A DNA stretch of 64,000 nt from Kangiella shandongensis. Lineage in GTDB: Bacteria > Pseudomonadota > Gammaproteobacteria > Enterobacterales > Kangiellaceae. The DNA lies in contig NZ_JACNML010000008.1 of assembly GCF_020005365.1 (NCBI RefSeq), positions 62,001 through 126,000 on the forward strand. The letters run 5' to 3'. The notes beneath the pieces were generated by a model. That model was given only the letters and a program-made list of their open reading frames with translations, made no database searches and was not told the origin of the DNA. Below are positions 31,319 to 40,082 of this stretch, in pieces (within the stretch, counting starts at the first letter, position 1; the number at the start of each line of letters is the position of its first letter). The translations under genes were made by a program, and so were the position numbers.

Positions 31319-33148
31319 TTACTCAATGACTCGTGCGGCACCTCTATCGGCACTGAGCGCATGTTGCGCATAAACTTTGAGTGCCGATGACACCGGGCGC
31401 TGTCGTGAACGAGGATACCAGCCTAACGCATTTTGCTCATTACGCCTTGCTGTGAGTTCATCGTCTTTGACATGCAGTGATAAGTCACGCTGGGCAATAT
31501 TGATAGCGATAGTGTCACCATCCCTGATCAGTCCAATAACACCTTCGCTCGCTGCCTCTGGTGACACATGACCAATGGACAGGCCTGAAGTGCCTCCAGA
31601 AAACCGGCCGTCCGTAATGAGTGCACAATGTTGATCCAGCCCTTTCGATTTTAGATAGCTGGTGGGGTAGAGCATTTCCTGCATACCCGGTCCACCCGAT
31701 GGACCTTCGTAGCGGATAACCACGACGTCACCTTTCTGTATTTGATTGCTCAGAATGGCTTCGACGGCGCTATCCTGACTTTCAAATACTCGCGCTTTGC
31801 CGGTAAAAGTTAAAAGCTCCTGTGGTACCGCAGCTGTTTTGATGATGGCACCATTGGGAGCAAGGTTACCGTATAAAACAGCAAGACCACCGTCCTGACT
31901 GTAGGCGTGCTCGATATTTCGAATGCAACCGTTCGAGCGATCGCTGTCTACAGAGTCATAATGGCAGGACTGACTGAAGGCCTGTTGAGTTGGGATGCCG
32001 GCAGGTCCTGCCTGATAAAATTGTTTAATCGCATCATCGGTGGCTGTCTGGATATCCCACTGTTGAATAAGATCCCCTATCGTTTTTTGTAAAACGGTTG
32101 GCTGGGTGGTATTGAGGAGATTCGCTCGGCTAAGTTCACCGAGAATGGCCATAACCCCGCCAGCGCGATGGACATCTTCCATATGATAGTTTTTTGTGGC
32201 CGGAGCAACTTTGCACAGGTTGGGTACTTGTCGGGATAAACGATCGATATCCTGTAAGCTAAAGTCGATCTGACCTTCATGAGCTGCTGCTAACAAATGC
32301 AGCACCGTGTTGGTCGATCCGCCCATGGCAATATCGAGGCTCATGGCGTTGATAAACGATTTTCGGTTGGCGATATTGCGTGGCAATACGGATTCATCGC
32401 CTTGCTCATAATAGTGGCGACAAAGGTCGACAATCTGGCGCCCGGCGGTTAAGAATAATTCCTTGCGATCAGAGTGTGTTGCCAAGAGCGAGCCGTTGCC
32501 CGGTAAGGCTAATCCCAAGGCTTCGGTAAGACAGTTCATGGAATTGGCGGTGAACATACCGGAGCAGGAACCGCAAGTAGGGCAGGCGCTACGCTCGACC
32601 TGTTCGCAATCTTCATCACTGACATCAGGATCTGCCGCTGTGACCATAGCGTCAACCAAGTCGAGCTTAATCAGTTGATCTGACAGTTTGGTTTTACCGG
32701 CTTCCATCGGACCACCTGAGACAAAAATGACAGGGATGTTAAGACGCATGGCTGCCAGCAGCATGCCCGGTGTAATCTTGTCGCAATTTGAGATGCAGAT
32801 CAGCGCATCGGCACAATGAGCATTAGCCATATACTCGACCGAGTCGGCAATAATTTCACGCGACGGTAGTGAGTAGAGCATGCCAGCATGGCCCATGGCG
32901 ATGCCGTCATCGATAGCGATGGTATTAAACTCTTTAGCAATACCACCGGCTTTCTCAATTTCTGTGGCGACTAACTGCCCCATGTCTTTTAAGTGGACGT
33001 GACCGGGAACAAATTGCGTGAATGAATTACAGACCGCGATGATGGGTTTACCAAAATCTTGATCTTTAACGCCAGTGGCTCGCCACAGGGCGCGAGCACC
33101 CGCCATGTTCCTGCCGTGAGTAGAAGTCTTAGAGCGATAGTCAGGCAT
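31319..33148 (-). CDS. ilvD: Dihydroxy-acid dehydratase
   Basis: A 609-residue Fe-S dehydratase that makes the 2-keto acids of valine and isoleucine. Cluster-ligand motifs are CNSFTQF (about 49), [10 protein letters not shown] (about 120-129) and [17 protein letters not shown] (about 191-207). Mg-site residues and the C-terminal [20 protein letters not shown] are present. ATG 33148 overlaps the ilvE 3' end by eight bases; the frame extends upstream into ilvE without coding meaning. Last gene of the ilv operon. Confidence 0.96.
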
Positions 33149-34091
33149 AAGATGTTTCCTCAATAGCGTTGACGGTTTCCAGCCAGCCGTATTCATCTTC
33201 AGTGGTGCCGTTAAACAGGCCAAAAAAGGCTTGTTGTAATTTTGCCGTAATGGGGCCGCGTGTACCCGAGCCAACCGCCAGATCATCAACACTTTTTATG
33301 GGCACAATTTCGGCTGCTGTACCAGTCATAAAAGCTTCGTCGGCGAGATATAGCGCTTCACGTGTCATGTTTTGCTCGATGACTTCATAGCCCATCTGGC
33401 GTGCTAAGGTCATCACCGTATCGCGTGTAATGCCCGGCAAAATAGAGGCGGTAAATGGTGGTGTATAAAGTGTTTTGTTTCTCACCACAAAAATATTTTC
33501 GCCAGAGCCTTCGGAAATATAACCGTTCACATCAAGAGCGATACCTTCAACATAACCTTTACGTGTGGCTTCACCGACGATCAGTTGTGACGACAGGTAA
33601 TTACCTCCTGCCTTGGCCGCCGCCGGAATAGTATTAGGCGCGACCCGGTTCCAGGAGGAAATACAGACATCAACACCCTGCTCAATGGAATCATTGCCTA
33701 AATAGGAGTCCCATGGAAACGCCGCAATGGATACGTCAACCGGGTTGTTGCTTGGACTGACACCGATAGAGCCATAGCCAAAAAATGCCACTGGACGCAA
33801 GTAAGCATCACGCAAGGTGTTGCTACTGATTACCTGGTGGCATGCTTCGAGCAGTTCGTCGAAAGAGTAGGGGATGCTCATGCGATAAATTTTAGCCGAC
33901 AAATATAAACGTTCGATGTGTTCACGCAAACGAAAAAATGCGGGGCCCTTATCCGTATCGTAACAGCGAATGCCTTCGAACACAGATGAGCCATAATGGA
34001 TAGCATGACTAAGGACATGAACCTGTGCCTGTTGCCATGGAACTGTCTTACCGTTAAACCAGATATATTCAGGGGGATTAATTTTAGCCAT
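33141..34091 (-). CDS. ilvE: Branched-chain amino acid aminotransferase
   Basis: A 316-residue fold-type IV PLP enzyme for the last step of valine, isoleucine and leucine synthesis. It shows [21 protein letters not shown] (family start region, in two parts), the PLP lysine in [12 protein letters not shown] (about 157), [10 protein letters not shown] (about 193-202) and the substrate loop GTAAEIVPI (about 255-263). ATG 34091 is chosen because it aligns with the family N-terminus ([15 protein letters not shown]). It overlaps cimA by eight bases. Confidence 0.95.
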
Positions 34092-35730
34092 TAAGAGTCT
34101 CCTCGTTGTCGTCGGTATTGGTCGGTACGTCAACGGCGTTTGAATGATGACGATACTTAATTAAAAAGAGTTCATAGCTGTCCACCAGCGCCTGCGTGCT
34201 GGCCTGAATGATATTGTCAGAGCAGCCGATGGTCGCCCAGTGGTGGCCGTTAAAACCGGACTGGATCCAGACGCGTGTGGTGGCAGCCGAAGCTTTTTGT
34301 GGATTAATAATTGATACTTTGTAGTCAGTTAGCTTCATTGCCTTGAGTTGCGGATAAAATCCTATTAAGGATTTCTTCAGGGCTCGATTCAGTGCATCAA
34401 CCGGCCCGGGAGCTTCTGCCGCAACGTGTGATACCGTATTACCCACCTCGAGCTTCACCGTAGCGATGCAGGGGTGTGTTTGTTTATCGGCAGCAAGAAC
34501 AACATCACTGGTGTGGATCTGAATGTTTAAAATGTTAAAGCTTGCCTGGTAAGACGGCTCTTGTTTTCGCAATAGCATCTCGAAGGAGCCGGGAGCATTT
34601 TCCAAGGTCAACCCTGTTTGTTCGAGCGACTTAATATTGCTTAACACTTGCTGGAAATTACGCGACACGTCGAGCCCCAGCTTTTTTGCCTGCAATTTAA
34701 TGTTTGCCTTACCAGACAGCTCTGATATAGAAATTTGACGGTGGTTACCGACCAGCTCAGGGGCAATATGTTCATAGGTATCGCTCGCTTCGCTGATAGC
34801 GGCAACATGAATTCCCCCTTTGTGATTAAATGCATGATGACCAACAAAAGCCGCGCTATTGTTCAGCGGAATGTTAGTTATGTCGGCAACATCATGTGCC
34901 AGCTGGGTAAGGCGCCCTGAATCAATGGTTGAGGTGAGTTTGAACTCATCGTTATAGGGTGACTTTAGCTGAAGGTTGGCTAATACACTGAGTAGGTTAG
35001 CGTTACCGCAGCGCTCGCCGTAACCATTGACGGTTCCCTGGATCAGAGATGCACCGGAGCTCACGGCGAGTAAACTGTTGGCCACAGCCATATCACAGTC
35101 ATTATGACAATGAATGCCTAAACTTAACTGAGGGAACTGTTGCCGAATGGATGTTACCGCCGCGGCTATTTCCTGCGGCATACTGCCGCCATTGGTATCA
35201 CACAGCGTGACATTATCAACCCCGGCATTGAGCGCTACCTGTATGCACTGCTCAACATATTCACGGTTGTGTTTAAAACCATCGAAAAAATGCTCGGCAT
35301 CAAGAATAACTTCGCGCCGATGCTGTTTTAAGAAGCGAATGGTGTCATAAATCATTTCCAGGTTTTCGCTCAACTCGGTTCGCAGTACTTTTTCAACATG
35401 ATAGCTCCAAAACTTACAGACAATAGCGATAACAGGAGTGTCAGCATCAAGCAGTGCTTTGACCTGTGGATCATGTTCGACTGCTATGTAAGGCTTGCGC
35501 GTCGAACCAAAGGCAACTAATTTTGTATGCTTCAGTTTGAGTCGTTTTACGCGTTGAAAGTAGGCTTCATCTTTCGGGTTCGAGCCAGGCCAGCCCCCTT
35601 CGATATAATCAAAACCAAAATCGTCTAATTTCTGCGTAAGCGTCAGTTTATCGTCTAACGAATAACTGATGCCTTTGCTCTGGGCACCATCTCTCAGTGT
35701 CGTGTCGTATAGATAAAGTCGTTTATTCAT
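34084..35730 (-). CDS. cimA: Citramalate synthase
   Basis: A 548-residue enzyme of the isopropylmalate/citramalate synthase superfamily, citramalate type (TIGR00977-like). It condenses pyruvate and acetyl-CoA into (R)-citramalate, the start of threonine-independent isoleucine synthesis. The catalytic barrel begins YDTTLRDGAQ, then GGWPGSNPKDE (about 43-53), the metal-binding HCHNDCDMAVANS (about 205-217) and GYGERCGNANL. The C-terminal LeuA-type regulatory domain spans about 400-520. It occupies the place of ilvA in the enterobacterial ilvGMEDA order. It overlaps ilvM and ilvE by eight bases each. Confidence 0.92.
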   Translation of the reverse strand: MNKRLYLYDTTLRDGAQSKGISYSLDDKLTLTQKLDDFGFDYIEGGWPGSNPKDEAYFQRVKRLKLKHTKLVAFGSTRKPYIAVEHDPQVKALLDADTPVIAIVCKFWSYHVEKVLRTELSENLEMIYDTIRFLKQHRREVILDAEHFFDGFKHNREYVEQCIQVALNAGVDNVTLCDTNGGSMPQEIAAAVTSIRQQFPQLSLGIHCHNDCDMAVANSLLAVSSGASLIQGTVNGYGERCGNANLLSVLANLQLKSPYNDEFKLTSTIDSGRLTQLAHDVADITNIPLNNSAAFVGHHAFNHKGGIHVAAISEASDTYEHIAPELVGNHRQISISELSGKANIKLQAKKLGLDVSRNFQQVLSNIKSLEQTGLTLENAPGSFEMLLRKQEPSYQASFNILNIQIHTSDVVLAADKQTHPCIATVKLEVGNTVSHVAAEAPGPVDALNRALKKSLIGFYPQLKAMKLTDYKVSIINPQKASAATTRVWIQSGFNGHHWATIGCSDNIIQASTQALVDSYELFLIKYRHHSNAVDVPTNTDDNEETLNG

Positions 35731-35992
35731 TACCGAGACAACTCCTGAGTTTAGAGTGTGCCTGTTGATGCACCTCAACAACGTCTACCAATTTATGCAG
35801 CTGGTGATAAAGGTTCTCAGCGGAGCGTTCGCTGGTGAGTTGTAAGGTCACGCTCATGCCATTTTCCAAAGCTTCTTCGCGAGCCAGGCAGTAATTTACT
35901 TCGAATCCTCGGTGGCGAATGAGACGAAGAATTCGTTCCAAACTACCGGTTGATTGGCGAAGAATGATTTTGAACGTATTGGTATTCATCAT
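35723..35992 (-). CDS. ilvM: Acetolactate synthase small subunit (IlvM type)
   Basis: An 89-residue regulatory subunit with one ACT domain (about 5-78), including RQSTGSLERILRLIRHRGF near the start and a long second helix. Short one-domain subunits of this kind belong to the AHAS II (IlvG-IlvM) type. The ATG at 35992 overlaps the ilvG stop (ATGA), so the subunits are translationally coupled. Confidence 0.92.
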   Translation of the reverse strand: MMNTNTFKIILRQSTGSLERILRLIRHRGFEVNYCLAREEALENGMSVTLQLTSERSAENLYHQLHKLVDVVEVHQQAHSKLRSCLGNE

Positions 35993-37686
35993 GTTTTGAT
36001 CTCCTCAATATAATCACTATTACTTTTACCGGGTGGAACTAATGGCCAGACGTTGTCGTCAGGATCGATGGCAACGTGTAGCAGAAAGCTTCCTTTCGTA
36101 TTCAGGAAGGTTTGTAGCGCGTGTTCGACTTCTTCAGCTTTATTAATCGACAGGCTTGGTACCTCGAAAGCTTGCGCTAAACGGCAGAAATCTGGGTTAT
36201 CGGAAAGGTCGATTTCACTAAAGCGTTTATCGAAAAATAAGCTCTGCCACTGTCTGACCATACCCAGCCGCTGGTTGTCGAGTAGCAGAATTTTGACGTC
36301 AATGTTGTAGCGCTTCAGGGTCGCCAGTTCTTGAATATTCATCATGATAGAGCCGTCGCCTGAGACATTGATTACGGTGCATTCAGGTTGAGCCAGCTTG
36401 GCTCCTATTGCGGCCGGTAGCCCATAACCCATGGCCCCCAGGCCCCCACTGCTGAGGTGGTGGTGGGGGGCGTGGAATTGCATGTGTTGAGCCACCCACA
36501 TTTGGTGTTGGCCAACATCGCAGCTGATGAAAGTGTTACTACCTGAACTTAAACACGATAGGCGATGCAGTAATGCCGGTGCATAGATCGATGTAAACGG
36601 TGCGTCATAACGAGCCGCCAGTCGAGCCTTATCCTGCAGGCATTGATAACGCCACTGATGAGCATTGTGATGCTGAAAACGAGGTAAGGTGTGTTGGTGC
36701 AATTGCCGCAATACAGTGCTCATGGAGCCGACCAGACTGACATCGGTTTGGCGCAGTTTATTAATTTCGGCACGATCACAGTCGATGTGAATCACTTTGG
36801 CGTCGGGAGCGAACAACTGCAGATTGCCTGTCGCGCGATCATCGAGGCGAGCCCCTACTACCAGCAACAGGTCACAGGCCTGAACGGCATTATTAGCTGT
36901 CTTAGTGCCGTGCATACCCAGCATTCCCAGGTTGTAACTATGGTCGCTTGGAATAGCGCCAATACCTTTCAGGGTAGTCACCGTGGGTAGTTTAAACTCG
37001 TCCACCAGCTGCTTCAGTTCGCCGCAGGACTGGGCCAGCCCAACGCCACCGCCGGCATAAACCAGTGGCCTGCTGCTTTGTGATAGCAGTAAGCTGGCAC
37101 TCTCAATGCTTTCTGCTGGTAGCTCGGAGGTTGAATGTGCCTTGAGCTGAGTATCCAGTTGCTGACTATAAGCCAAACTGGCCGCAGGTAACTCCGCTAG
37201 TTGTACATCTTTGGCTATATCAACCAAAACCGGTCCCGGACGACCATGTTGTGCCAGCTGGATGGCTTCATTCAGCATACGCGGCAGATCTTCAATCCGC
37301 TGCACTAAATAACTGTGTTTAACGATGGGTAAGGATAACCCGTAGGTATCGACTTCCTGAAAAGCATCGGTGCCGATCAACTGCGAATTAACCTGTCCGG
37401 TTATGGTAAGTAATGGAACCGAGTCCATATAGGCATTCGCGATCCCAGTAACTAGGTTGGTCGCACCCGGCCCGGAGGTTGCCATACATACCCCCAGCCG
37501 AGCCGAAGCCCGGGCATAGCCGTCAGCAGCAAATACTGCTCCTTGTTCGTGTCGACAGAGCACATGCTTGATGCCGCTGCCTAAGAGCGCATCATAAATT
37601 GGCATGATGGCACCGCCAGGGTAGCCAAACACCGTCTCAACCTGATGTCGTTTTAAAGTTTTGATTAAGTAATCTGCACCACGCAT
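35989..37686 (-). CDS. ilvG: Acetolactate synthase large subunit (IlvG type)
   Basis: A 565-residue thiamine-diphosphate enzyme forming acetolactate and acetohydroxybutyrate. The catalytic glutamate lies in CRHEQGAVFAADGYARA (about 45-61). The FAD-binding middle domain (TTLKGIGAIPSDH) and the ThDP/Mg motif GDGSIMMNIQELATLKRYN (about 427-445) are present. ATG 37686 (MRGADYLIKTLKRH) follows GAAGGTG and fits the family; the frame opens at 37719 inside the ilvC end. It pairs with the ACT subunit next to it. Confidence 0.95.
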   Translation of the reverse strand: MRGADYLIKTLKRHQVETVFGYPGGAIMPIYDALLGSGIKHVLCRHEQGAVFAADGYARASARLGVCMATSGPGATNLVTGIANAYMDSVPLLTITGQVNSQLIGTDAFQEVDTYGLSLPIVKHSYLVQRIEDLPRMLNEAIQLAQHGRPGPVLVDIAKDVQLAELPAASLAYSQQLDTQLKAHSTSELPAESIESASLLLSQSSRPLVYAGGGVGLAQSCGELKQLVDEFKLPTVTTLKGIGAIPSDHSYNLGMLGMHGTKTANNAVQACDLLLVVGARLDDRATGNLQLFAPDAKVIHIDCDRAEINKLRQTDVSLVGSMSTVLRQLHQHTLPRFQHHNAHQWRYQCLQDKARLAARYDAPFTSIYAPALLHRLSCLSSGSNTFISCDVGQHQMWVAQHMQFHAPHHHLSSGGLGAMGYGLPAAIGAKLAQPECTVINVSGDGSIMMNIQELATLKRYNIDVKILLLDNQRLGMVRQWQSLFFDKRFSEIDLSDNPDFCRLAQAFEVPSLSINKAEEVEHALQTFLNTKGSFLLHVAIDPDDNVWPLVPPGKSNSDYIEEIKT

Positions 37687-37699
37687 AACATCACCTTCG

Positions 37700-38716
37700 C
37701 TAATTGATGGTTTGATCAACCAACGGCTTTTTCTTAATCCATGGCATCATGCCGCGCAGCTGCTCACCAACCGTTTCAATCGGGTGCTGGGCGTGAGCGC
37801 CTCTAAGCTGAAGTAACGTTTGGTAGTCGTTTCGACAGTCGTCGACATATTCTTTGGCGAATTGGCCGTTTTGGATCTCTTGCAGGATATCTTTCATCGC
37901 CGCTTTGGTATCTTTCGTGACCAGTCGATTACCGCGGGTTAAATCACCGTACTCAGCAGTGTTGGAAATTGAGTAGCGCATGGTGTTAATGCCACCTTCG
38001 TACATCAGATCGACGATCAATTTAAGTTCGTGTAGGCATTCGAAGTAAGCCATTTCCGGGGCGTAGCCTGCTTCGACCAAAGTTTCAAAACCAGCTTGAA
38101 CCAGAGCTGCAGTACCGCCACACAGAACGGCCTGCTCGCCGAATAGATCGGTTTCGGTTTCTTCTTTAAAGGTCGTTTCGATAATGCCGGCACGGCCGCC
38201 ACCGATAGCGCTAGCGTAGGCGTAGGCTTGCTGTTTCGTATCGCCAGTAACATCCTGATGAATGGCTACGAGGCAGGGTACGCCGCTACCTTCGGTATAA
38301 GTCGAGCGAACCGTATGACCGGGGCCTTTAGGCGCCACCATAAATACATTGATATCGTCGCGGGGATTGATTTGCTCAAAATGAACATTAAAGCCATGGG
38401 CGAAACCGAGGCTGGCACCAGCTTTTAAATTTGGCTTAACATACTGCTCGTAAACCGTGGGTTGATGTTCGTCTGGAAGTAACATCATAACCAGATCGGC
38501 GTCCTGCAATGCTTCTTCTATGGCGGCGCCGGGCATATTGCTGCGGCGTAACTTTTCAAAACTGCCTGAGCCCTGACGCAAGCCAACGGTAACGTCGAAA
38601 TCACTGTCTTTTAGATTATTCGAATGGGCGTAGCCTTGCGAGCCATAGCCTAGAATAACGATTTTCTTGTCGTTAAGTACTTCGGTCTTAATGTCGTTGT
38701 CGTATGTCACTTTCAT
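37700..38716 (-). CDS. ilvC: Ketol-acid reductoisomerase
   Basis: A 338-residue class I (short) enzyme for the second common step of valine and isoleucine synthesis. The NADPH-binding loop is GYGSQGYAHSNNLKDS (about 24-39) followed by VGLRQGS. The catalytic knotted domain has DLFGEQAVLCGGTAAL (about 191-206), ELKLIVDLMYEGG and SNTAEYG. First structural gene of the operon ilvC-G-M-cimA-E-D, preceded by two attenuator modules. Only 13 bases separate it from the ilvG ATG. Confidence 0.96.
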   Translation of the reverse strand: MKVTYDNDIKTEVLNDKKIVILGYGSQGYAHSNNLKDSDFDVTVGLRQGSGSFEKLRRSNMPGAAIEEALQDADLVMMLLPDEHQPTVYEQYVKPNLKAGASLGFAHGFNVHFEQINPRDDINVFMVAPKGPGHTVRSTYTEGSGVPCLVAIHQDVTGDTKQQAYAYASAIGGGRAGIIETTFKEETETDLFGEQAVLCGGTAALVQAGFETLVEAGYAPEMAYFECLHELKLIVDLMYEGGINTMRYSISNTAEYGDLTRGNRLVTKDTKAAMKDILQEIQNGQFAKEYVDDCRNDYQTLLQLRGAHAQHPIETVGEQLRGMMPWIKKKPLVDQTIN

Positions 38717-38744: not shown

Positions 38745-38780
38745 AAAAAAAAGCCCCCGGACTTTTCAGTGCGGGGGCTT
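38745..38780 (-). terminator. ilv attenuator terminator, proximal copy
   Basis: On the minus strand AAGCCCCCG (38780-38772) and CGGGGGCTT (38759-38751) form a nine-base-pair GC-rich stem that runs into a tract of eight T. A CGGGGGC sequence inside the leader-peptide end (38817-38811) is complementary to the 5' arm and can form the competing antiterminator. Confidence 0.88.
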
Positions 38781-38802
38781 GGTTATTTGTTATGCTTCTA
38801 AC

Positions 38803-38880
38803 TCACATGCGCCCCCGTTGCGGTAATAAAATCACCACAATAATTAAGACGACGATAATGTTTGAAGTTAGAAAATTCAT
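38803..38880 (-). CDS. ilv operon leader peptide, proximal copy (25 aa)
   Basis: A 25-codon ORF with 13 Ile, Val or Leu residues (core IIVVLIIVVILL) ending PQRGRM. Its stop lies 23 bases before the terminator hairpin. Ribosome stalling at the Ile/Val/Leu codons when charged tRNA is scarce would expose CGGGGGC and prevent terminator formation. The pattern resembles enterobacterial IlvL. The ribosome-binding site (AAGTAG) is weak. It lies 87 bases upstream of ilvC. Confidence 0.8.
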   Translation of the reverse strand: MNFLTSNIIVVLIIVVILLPQRGRM

Positions 38881-39002
38881 AATATAAAAAGCTACTTACA
38901 TGAGTTGCACAGTGTCACTTGCACCATTTCGCTGGTGGTGTGCTTTACTTCAGTTTGTTGCTTGTCTCCTTCAGTACTGTGTACATATTCATTTGTTGGG
39001 GC
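38881..39002 (-). other. Spacer between the two ilv attenuator modules
   Basis: There is no repeat of the neighbouring modules here. A 15-codon ORF (MNMYTVLKETSNKLK) begins at 38991 but has no regulatory codon bias. A second promoter feeding only the proximal module could lie here, for example around GTGACA near 38915, but no convincing -10 follows. Confidence 0.35.
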
Positions 39003-39040
39003 CAAAAAAAAAGCCCCCGGACTTTTCAGTGCGGGGGCTT
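39003..39040 (-). terminator. ilv attenuator terminator, distal copy
   Basis: The same hairpin sequence as the proximal copy: AAGCCCCCG (39040-39032) and CGGGGGCTT (39019-39011) with an identical loop, followed by nine T on the minus strand. It ends 123 bases upstream of the proximal leader ATG. Confidence 0.88.
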
Positions 39041-39062
39041 GGTCATTCGTCAGGTTTCTAAC

Positions 39063-39137
39063 TCACACGCGCCCCCGTTGCGGTAATAAAATCACCACAA
39101 TCACGTTGACGATAATGTTAGAAACTTGTTTTAGCAT
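39063..39137 (-). CDS. ilv operon leader peptide, distal copy (24 aa)
   Basis: A 24-codon ORF with 13 Ile, Val or Leu residues (core IIVNVIVVILL) ending PQRGRV. From the GTGGTGATT codons through the terminator it is almost identical to the proximal copy, with only scattered changes, while the N-terminal codons and the DNA upstream differ. A GAG lies about ten bases before the ATG. The promoter should lie between 39140 and 39272; a TTGCAA near 39203-39208 and GATAGT near 39183-39188 are tentative boxes. Confidence 0.8.
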   Translation of the reverse strand: MLKQVSNIIVNVIVVILLPQRGRV

Positions 39138-39272
39138 TTGAATGAACTCAATAATAATCGGTTAAATTTTTTCACCACTCGAGACTATCACAGTACTTGC
39201 GCTTTGCAAATAAAAAAGTGCGTTATGCCATGTGGTCAGATTAGTTGTATGTTGTTTGGTTATAAAGGGCTG

Positions 39273-40082
39273 CTAGTGAGTTACTGATATTTCAGTTATT
39301 TCCGGTGATAGAAGTTCGCTGCGCAGCTGGTGCCAGTCCAAAATGCTCAGGTGACCATCAAAGTCTTCCGCCAGTGCGGTACAGCTTTCGACCCAATCTC
39401 CGTCGTTGTAATAATTAATGCCATGAAACTGGCGTATCTCGGCATGATGGATGTGACCACAGACGATCCCATCTGCTTGTTTTTTGCTAGCGTGTTCGGC
39501 TGCTATTTTTTCAAACTGAGAGATATAACTGACGGCGTTTTTTACTTTCATCTTCAAGTGTGCGGATAGTGACCAGTAACCTTTATCGAAGCGTTCGCGA
39601 AATTTATTGATGGGACGGTTAAGTTTTAATAAGAACTCGTAGAGGTGATCACCAATTGTTGCCAGCCAAGGTGTAAAACGCATCACGTTATCGAAAATAT
39701 CTCCATGCAAGACCAGCAGCCGCTCACCTCGAGCTGTCACATGAATATCATCTTCCAGGATCTTGACGCTACCCAGTGACATACCGGTATAGTTTCTAAC
39801 AAGGGAGTCATGGTTGCCTGGAATAAAGATCACTTCGCAGCCTTTACGTCCTTTGCGGAGAATTTTTTGTACTACATCATTGTGTAGCTGAGGCCAGTAC
39901 CAGCGATTTTTAAGCCGCCAGCAATCAATAATATCACCAACCAGGTATAACTTTTTGCACTCAATGTGCTGCAAAAATTCGAGAAGTAACTGTGCTTGGC
40001 AACCTTTGCTGCCGAGATGGGTATCGGAGAGCCAGATGGTACGGTAACGACGCTTTGTGCCGGGGTTCGAAGGTAACGTCAT
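39273..40082 (-). CDS. LpxH-like UDP-2,3-diacylglucosamine diphosphatase family phosphoesterase
   Basis: A 269-residue calcineurin-like phosphoesterase of the LpxH (COG2908) family. Metal-site motifs are LSDTHLGSKG (about 18-27), VGDIIDCWRL (about 48-57), PGNHDSL (about 89-95), LHGDIFDN (about 124-131) and CGHIHHAE (about 207-214). It is longer than canonical LpxH (about 240) and has the GTKRRYRTIWLSDTH start of the second, LpxH2-like branch. It probably hydrolyses UDP-diacylglucosamine or a related membrane nucleotide; which one cannot be decided without knowing whether a canonical lpxH exists elsewhere. Confidence 0.8.
   Translation of the reverse strand: MTLPSNPGTKRRYRTIWLSDTHLGSKGCQAQLLLEFLQHIECKKLYLVGDIIDCWRLKNRWYWPQLHNDVVQKILRKGRKGCEVIFIPGNHDSLVRNYTGMSLGSVKILEDDIHVTARGERLLVLHGDIFDNVMRFTPWLATIGDHLYEFLLKLNRPINKFRERFDKGYWSLSAHLKMKVKNAVSYISQFEKIAAEHASKKQADGIVCGHIHHAEIRQFHGINYYNDGDWVESCTALAEDFDGHLSILDWHQLRSELLSPEITEISVTH

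Follow-up and report, generated by a model that had tools for sequence, protein, structure and literature searches.

Two Ile/Val/Leu leader-peptide attenuators in series upstream of the ilvC operon of Kangiella shandongensis

Single attenuators of branched-chain amino acid (BCAA) operons are textbook matter, and the usual scheme of their mechanism shows a single leader peptide with a single switch. The window analysed here, a stretch of 64,000 nt from Kangiella shandongensis (contig NZ_JACNML010000008.1, positions 62,001 to 126,000), carries on its minus strand, upstream of ilvC, two complete Ile/Val/Leu leader-peptide attenuators in series. This raises the question of whether one transcript has to pass both, whether each belongs to a transcript of its own, or whether one copy has become redundant. 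We consider it probable (roughly 0.8) that the two ilv attenuators gate a single transcript in series and that both read the same signal. The modules sit between a metallophosphoesterase gene (39273-40082) and ilvC, and the operon behind them has the order ilvC-ilvB-ilvM-cimA-ilvE-ilvD (Table 1). The amino acids that would be sensed are the operon's own products, as judged by profile matches for ilvC, acetolactate synthase, citramalate synthase, ilvE, and ilvD. Threonine deaminase (ilvA) is none of the six genes and citramalate synthase is one of them, which suggests that isoleucine is made from pyruvate; threonine dehydratase has been reported to be absent from Kangiella genomes (PMC6000758).

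Table 1. Features of the attenuator region and the operon behind it (window positions).
Feature	Position	Strand	Description or evidence
Promoter-like element TTGCAA - 16 nt - TAGTCT (TGTGATAGTCT)	39182..39209	minus	presumed start of the operon transcript
Leader ORF 1, MLKQVSNIIVNVIVVILLPQRGRV then stop	39137-39063	minus	24 aa, 13 I/L/V; same position in 8 congeners
Control-codon hairpin, module 1, UUGUGGUGAU-UUU-AUUACCGCAA	39078..39100	minus	folding; pairing over 19 modules
Antiterminator arm CGGGGGC, module 1 (PQRGR codons)	39077-39071	minus	partner 39038-39032; covariation over modules
Intrinsic terminator 1	39004..39040	minus	9 bp plus inner ACU-GAAA-AGU, then 9 T (39012-39004)
Leader ORF 2, MNFLTSNIIVVLIIVVILLPQRGRM then stop	38880-38803	minus	25 aa, 13 I/L/V
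Control-codon hairpin, module 2	38818..38840	minus	folding; pairing over 19 modules
Antiterminator arm CGGGGGC, module 2	38817-38811	minus	covariation over modules
Intrinsic terminator 2	38745..38780	minus	same hairpin as terminator 1; 8 T (38752-38745)
ilvC, class I ketol-acid reductoisomerase	37700..38716	minus	NF004017 equivalog, 532 bits
Acetolactate synthase catalytic subunit (AHAS II / ilvG-like; ilvB in the operon order)	35989..37719	minus	NF006524 equivalog, 857 bits
Small ACT-like subunit, ilvM-like, 89 aa	35723..35992	minus	ORF and position; family presumed from these rather than from a profile scan
cimA, citramalate synthase	34084..35781	minus	TIGR00977 equivalog, 623 bits; likely start at internal ATG near 35730
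ilvE, branched-chain aminotransferase	33141..34133	minus	TIGR01122
ilvD, dihydroxy-acid dehydratase	31319..33292	minus	TIGR00110 / NF009103

Re-reading of the sequence bore out the first-pass annotation on the composition of the two modules: the coordinates, leader peptides (24-25 codons, 13 Ile/Val/Leu, PQRGR near the end), CGGGGGC arms, and terminators with 8-9 T were all recovered before ilvC on the minus strand. In both peptides PQRGR is followed by one further C-terminal residue. Both terminators have the hairpin sequence AAGCCCCCGCACTGAAAAGTCCGGGGGCTT and the layout GCCCCCG-CACTGAAAAGTC-CGGGGGC followed by the T tract; the terminator 26-mer has exactly two copies in the 2.8-Mb genome with 3 mismatches allowed, and both lie here. 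The direct repeat over the two modules covers 108 nt at 90% identity with a start-to-start spacing of 260. The repeat distance of 257 given earlier is that from ATG to ATG; leader 2 is longer by one codon. Near-identity does run from the GTGGTGATT codons to the T tract, and the N-termini and flanks differ, as had been described. So close a repeat could in principle arise as an assembly or repeat artefact; we rate this as close to negligible, since the spacer and both leaders differ between the copies and eight independent genomes, some of them closed, have the same arrangement with diverged sequence.

An ORF with a regulatory codon run, defined as at least nine Ile/Val/Leu in the best 12-residue window, was found in all 18 tandem modules. 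We also considered modules that sense different amino acids and rejected the idea: both keep ATT GTG GTG ATT TTA TTA or near variants of it. A search of the region for a T-box gave no match at the gathering score nor among matches with E up to 5, and none of the Rfam leader families searched (His, Phe, Trp, and Thr leaders) reached its gathering score, the best being His_leader with 30.6 bits against 49.

Next, relatives were surveyed for one versus two copies, as the first-pass annotation had proposed. Class I IlvC is encoded in 9 of the 20 genus genomes, the window species counted, and the tandem pair precedes ilvC in all nine congeners that retain this ilvC (75-100% identical). A covariance model built from the modules gave its strongest matches at exactly these nine pairs. 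Because the pair recurs in eight species besides the window species, it is not a chance arrangement. The ilvC operon itself is patchy in the genus, with about half of the congeners, closed genomes included, devoid of class I ilvC, which suggests that branched-chain amino acid synthesis has been lost repeatedly. Among the congeners that have no ilvC, a module is retained only in one genome (G017), which also has no close acetolactate synthase. Its single module (L122, G017:C1:897385-900484) is decayed, with the leader end LLRVVILLPREG and an arm AGAGGGC matched to GCCCTCG, and it precedes an ilvM-like ORF and ilvE in what is apparently an operon remnant. Decay of this module after the loss of ilvC and ilvB is as expected if the operon maintains the modules.

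In the genomes searched outside the genus the module was found singly, before ilvB/ilvG-type or ilvC genes. The model had matches in 222 of 395 genomes of the order and a second tandem in none of them. Several weak matches each were present in 28 order genomes; a renewed search of these gave no two same-strand matches within 1 kb, the matches being widely separated, on different strands, or of very low score. Each of 20 loci inspected had one module at the match, and among 10 loci read for gene content, all nine that yielded an ORF had acetolactate synthase or ilvC after the module. The single order modules (e.g., G024/L011, G091/L140, and G023/L141) resemble those of the window in their terminator core of the GCACTGAAAAGTCC type, their I/V/L leader, and their position before ilvC or acetolactate synthase genes, but each is one copy only. 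A sample of 274 genomes of the class yielded only the pair of the window and, in a single genome of the order, two copies that stand apart, at a cut-off of E 1e-7 so strict that the search says little on diverged copies. As the tandem is present in all nine ilvC congeners and in no other of the order genomes searched, it looks, from these genome comparisons, genus-specific and older than the split of the nine species. Most family members carry class II IlvC, and one with class I IlvC (G024) has one module. The long class II ketol-acid reductoisomerase of most family relatives (e.g., G021-G036) and the class I enzyme of this genus and a few order members hint at replacement or differential loss of ilvC. 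Separately, a Selenomonadaceae MAG (L105:6660-7235, minus strand) has two Ile/Val/Leu-rich leader peptides, MVKIIIRIVVLTVIILWVLTKTAA and MTILKIVVRVIVLSGVILLVLSKTAA, 395 nt apart, each with a terminator and with the flanks duplicated as well; a TATAAT-like box precedes the second leader, and no obvious target gene lies downstream on that strand.

To assess the RNA structures, helix statistics were taken from 19 aligned modules. A GC hairpin and T tract lie between the leader ORF and the structural gene in all modules. The terminator helix was paired in 99.1% of cells, with 3 doubly changed pairs. The antiterminator helix CGGGGGC:GCCCCCG, which shares the 5' arm of the terminator, was paired in 90.2% of cells, and five module-1 copies have a G-C to A-U replacement in it (CGAGGGC:GCCCUCG). 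Shifting the helix partner by 1 base lowered pairing to 57-67% for the terminator and 50-62% for the antiterminator, and shifts of either helix by 1-3 nt lowered it to 24-67%. The control-codon hairpin UUGUGGUGAU/AUUACCGCAA was paired in 93.6% of cells with 2 pairs doubly changed, counts that are slightly low since MAFFT placed two modules one codon out of register. In module 1 of one species (G009) a U-A to A-U exchange in this hairpin replaces one Val by Asp and one Leu by Ile in the leader; it keeps the base pair while changing the residues, which argues that RNA structure was selected over the peptide there. Full-module folds were much more stable than shuffles (z about -5). In arm shuffles the observed antiterminator pairing was reached in 0-21 of 200 per module, so that it is only moderately unusual for a single module and the weight lies on conservation and covariation; the covariation events are few because the relatives are close.

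Folding of each module, another suggestion of the first-pass annotation, gave an antiterminator and a terminator helix that exclude each other, that covary, and whose formation in silico depends on where the ribosome stands. For this a ribosome was masked at each leader codon and the nascent RNA was folded up to the terminator loop, as a snapshot rather than a kinetic simulation. With the ribosome at or before the first Leu codon, the terminator 5' arm paired upstream almost fully in 18 of 18 tandem modules. At the second Leu, partial antiterminator pairing was left in most of the modules, and at the stop codon it was near 0. Changing the footprint by 3 nt shifted the loss of antiterminator pairing by about one codon. 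The modelled pattern is the one needed for attenuation that answers to starvation for Ile/Val (and Leu). The full-length fold contains a long 5' hairpin. At full length the terminator is thermodynamically favoured over the antiterminator; switching must therefore be kinetic. In the nascent snapshot with no ribosome the antiterminator still formed in most modules, so a classical protector that keeps the RNA terminated when its leader is untranslated is not evident. Shine-Dalgarno pairing at the leader starts ranged from +1.9 to -4.3 kcal/mol (background ATG median -1.5; ilvC -3.9 to -6.6), and translation of the leaders is not assured because this pairing is poor.

The products of the leaders could also matter by themselves: short terminated leader RNAs or peptides might act in trans as sRNA or peptide regulators, with duplication raising the dose. 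A precedent is outlined in PMC7298713, where the trp leader peptide peTrpL of Sinorhizobium acts in trans. For the Kangiella modules we think this very improbable. Conservation follows the cis switch, with the arm-to-arm match kept within a module and differing between modules; the peptide N-termini vary freely; and the module goes together with the ilv operon, G017 being the one congener lacking ilvC that has a copy, decayed and still upstream of ilvM-like and ilvE genes.

Whether one transcript crosses both modules depends on where transcription starts. Two promoters with two attenuators would be the alternative: module 2 would be under a promoter in the spacer, and each transcript would meet one attenuator, or a short transcript would meet module 2 only. 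The distance from the first T tract to the second ATG is 132 nt in the window species and between 108 and 191 nt in another five, which leaves room for a promoter; in three species it is 23, 36, and 37 nt, too short for -35 and -10 elements plus an untranslated leader. Upstream of module 1 a single block, TTTGCAAA-N-TGTGTTA, is conserved; it is present in nine of nine species and in the window reads TTGCAA - 16 nt - TAGTCT. No promoter-like block is common to the spacers of the nine, the long ones included. A simple sigma-70 scan gave no match on the minus strand and did not pick up the promoter-like element of Table 1 either. The separate internal promoter for module 2 that had been put forward earlier is thus disfavoured, because spacers are short in three species and the sole conserved promoter-like element precedes module 1; in the long-spacer species it is somewhat less improbable. 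Overall we regard the two-promoter arrangement as improbable.

In the preferred reading, in-series gating of one transcript, a single RNA would start upstream of module 1 and cross two independent ribosome-mediated terminators that respond to the same signal. In each module a ribosome would translate the Ile/Val/Leu-rich leader. When charged tRNA is plentiful, the ribosome at the stop codon would cover CGGGGGC, GCCCCCG would pair with the downstream CGGGGGC, and transcription would terminate at the T tract. A ribosome stalled at an Ile or Val codon, or at the first Leu codon, would leave CGGGGGC free to capture GCCCCCG before the terminator 3' arm exists, resulting in readthrough, and at module 2 a new ribosome would put the polymerase through the test again. 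For independent modules the readthrough would be Q1 x Q2; with similar modules the basal leak would be squared and the logarithmic starvation sensitivity doubled (pseudo-cooperative). The sharper, multiplicative response suggested by the first-pass annotation is on this basis a sound prediction. Hyper-sensitivity is within reach of one attenuator (PMC1183508), so lower leak may be the main gain.

The two modules are unequal in most species: eight of the nine have a less stable hairpin in module 1 than in module 2 (-17.5 to -19.0 vs about -20.5 kcal/mol), and in five of those eight the arm CGAGGGC fits its own terminator better than the module-2 terminator. The downstream hairpin (module 2) is identical in sequence in all nine species. 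These differences could mean that module 2 regulates and module 1 is a tolerated, redundant, drifting duplicate, and two further features of module 1 point the same way: two species have a break in its T tract, and other residues intervene at some points of its control run (K in G004, D in G009). Module 1 nevertheless keeps its ATG, I/L/V run, matched arms, and T tract in nine species, with compensatory changes; core identity between species is equal for the two modules (77.6% for module 1, 77.7% for module 2); and a useless copy should decay, as the single G017 module began to do after ilvC and ilvB were lost. We therefore hold the drifting duplicate to be unlikely by a wide measure. An extension of in-series gating is a tuned two-stage device, in which a leakier first gate is followed by an invariant strict gate, each with its own ribosome, and which opens on two consecutive stalls. 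The first gate would be leakier by virtue of its weaker terminator, and its antiterminator arm mostly fits its own module and pairs less well with module 2. We put this forward tentatively, as possible but with the odds somewhat against it; if true, it would be a proofreading, pseudo-cooperative form of ribosome-mediated attenuation not described before.

The window species itself has hairpins of equal strength in both modules. Its modules 1 and 2 are 91% identical, compared with 65-81% within the other genomes. Its module 2 is 83-90% identical to module 1 of other species and 80-84% to their module 2. Within 38745-39112, the stop-to-terminator stretch of module 2 is of the module-1 type, and terminator 1 carries the sequence of module 2. 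Gene conversion, a recent exchange between the two copies, accounts for the equal modules and near-identity in this species; for a two-stage device, it would have made both gates equal here.

Ribosome-mediated attenuators described as single units include ilvGMEDA, ilvBN, and leuABCD of E. coli (PMC1183508) and ilvBNC of Corynebacterium (PMC11857589). Each Kangiella module resembles these in its Ile/Val/Leu leader, its antiterminator competing with an intrinsic terminator, and its location upstream of BCAA genes. It differs in that two complete units stand in series before one operon, that most copies have no clear 1:2 protector, and that the final codons of the leader contain the antiterminator arm, which the ribosome would mask directly. 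The Salmonella mgtCBR leader has tandem attenuators, mgtM and mgtP, which sense ATP and proline, additively, and it has no intrinsic-terminator-like stem-loops (PMC3641672). The Kangiella leader would likewise have two attenuating short ORFs in one mRNA, but its modules share control codons and use intrinsic terminators. In our literature search, which covered few subscription papers and left aside the classic proteobacterial attenuator surveys, no report of same-signal leader-peptide attenuators in series was found. We conclude that the in-series ilv pair is real, conserved, and seemingly undescribed, with a likely mechanism and a quantitative benefit that we infer. Such a conserved same-signal pair indicates that ribosome-mediated attenuation lends itself to stacking, in the way known for riboswitches and T-boxes. 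The natural variants on offer (equal gates, leaky-then-strict gates, short or long spacers, and a decayed single copy) can be used to ask whether stacking cuts leak and steepens the starvation response. The closest parallels in architecture are the tandem T-boxes before BCAA/ilv operons in Bacillota, where two uncharged tRNAs are needed (PMC12452182), and tandem same-ligand riboswitches, called "pseudo-cooperative" on the same product-of-gates argument (PMC9481103). Like these, the Kangiella locus has two complete sensors and terminators in series with the same signal class, and a steeper response would be expected; unlike these, where the RNA senses uncharged tRNA or ligand directly, the sensor here would be the translating ribosome. 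The proteobacterial tandem is, by this analogy, apparently convergent with the Bacillota arrangement, and the T-box pairs in front of ilv operons there gain a counterpart in Proteobacteria.
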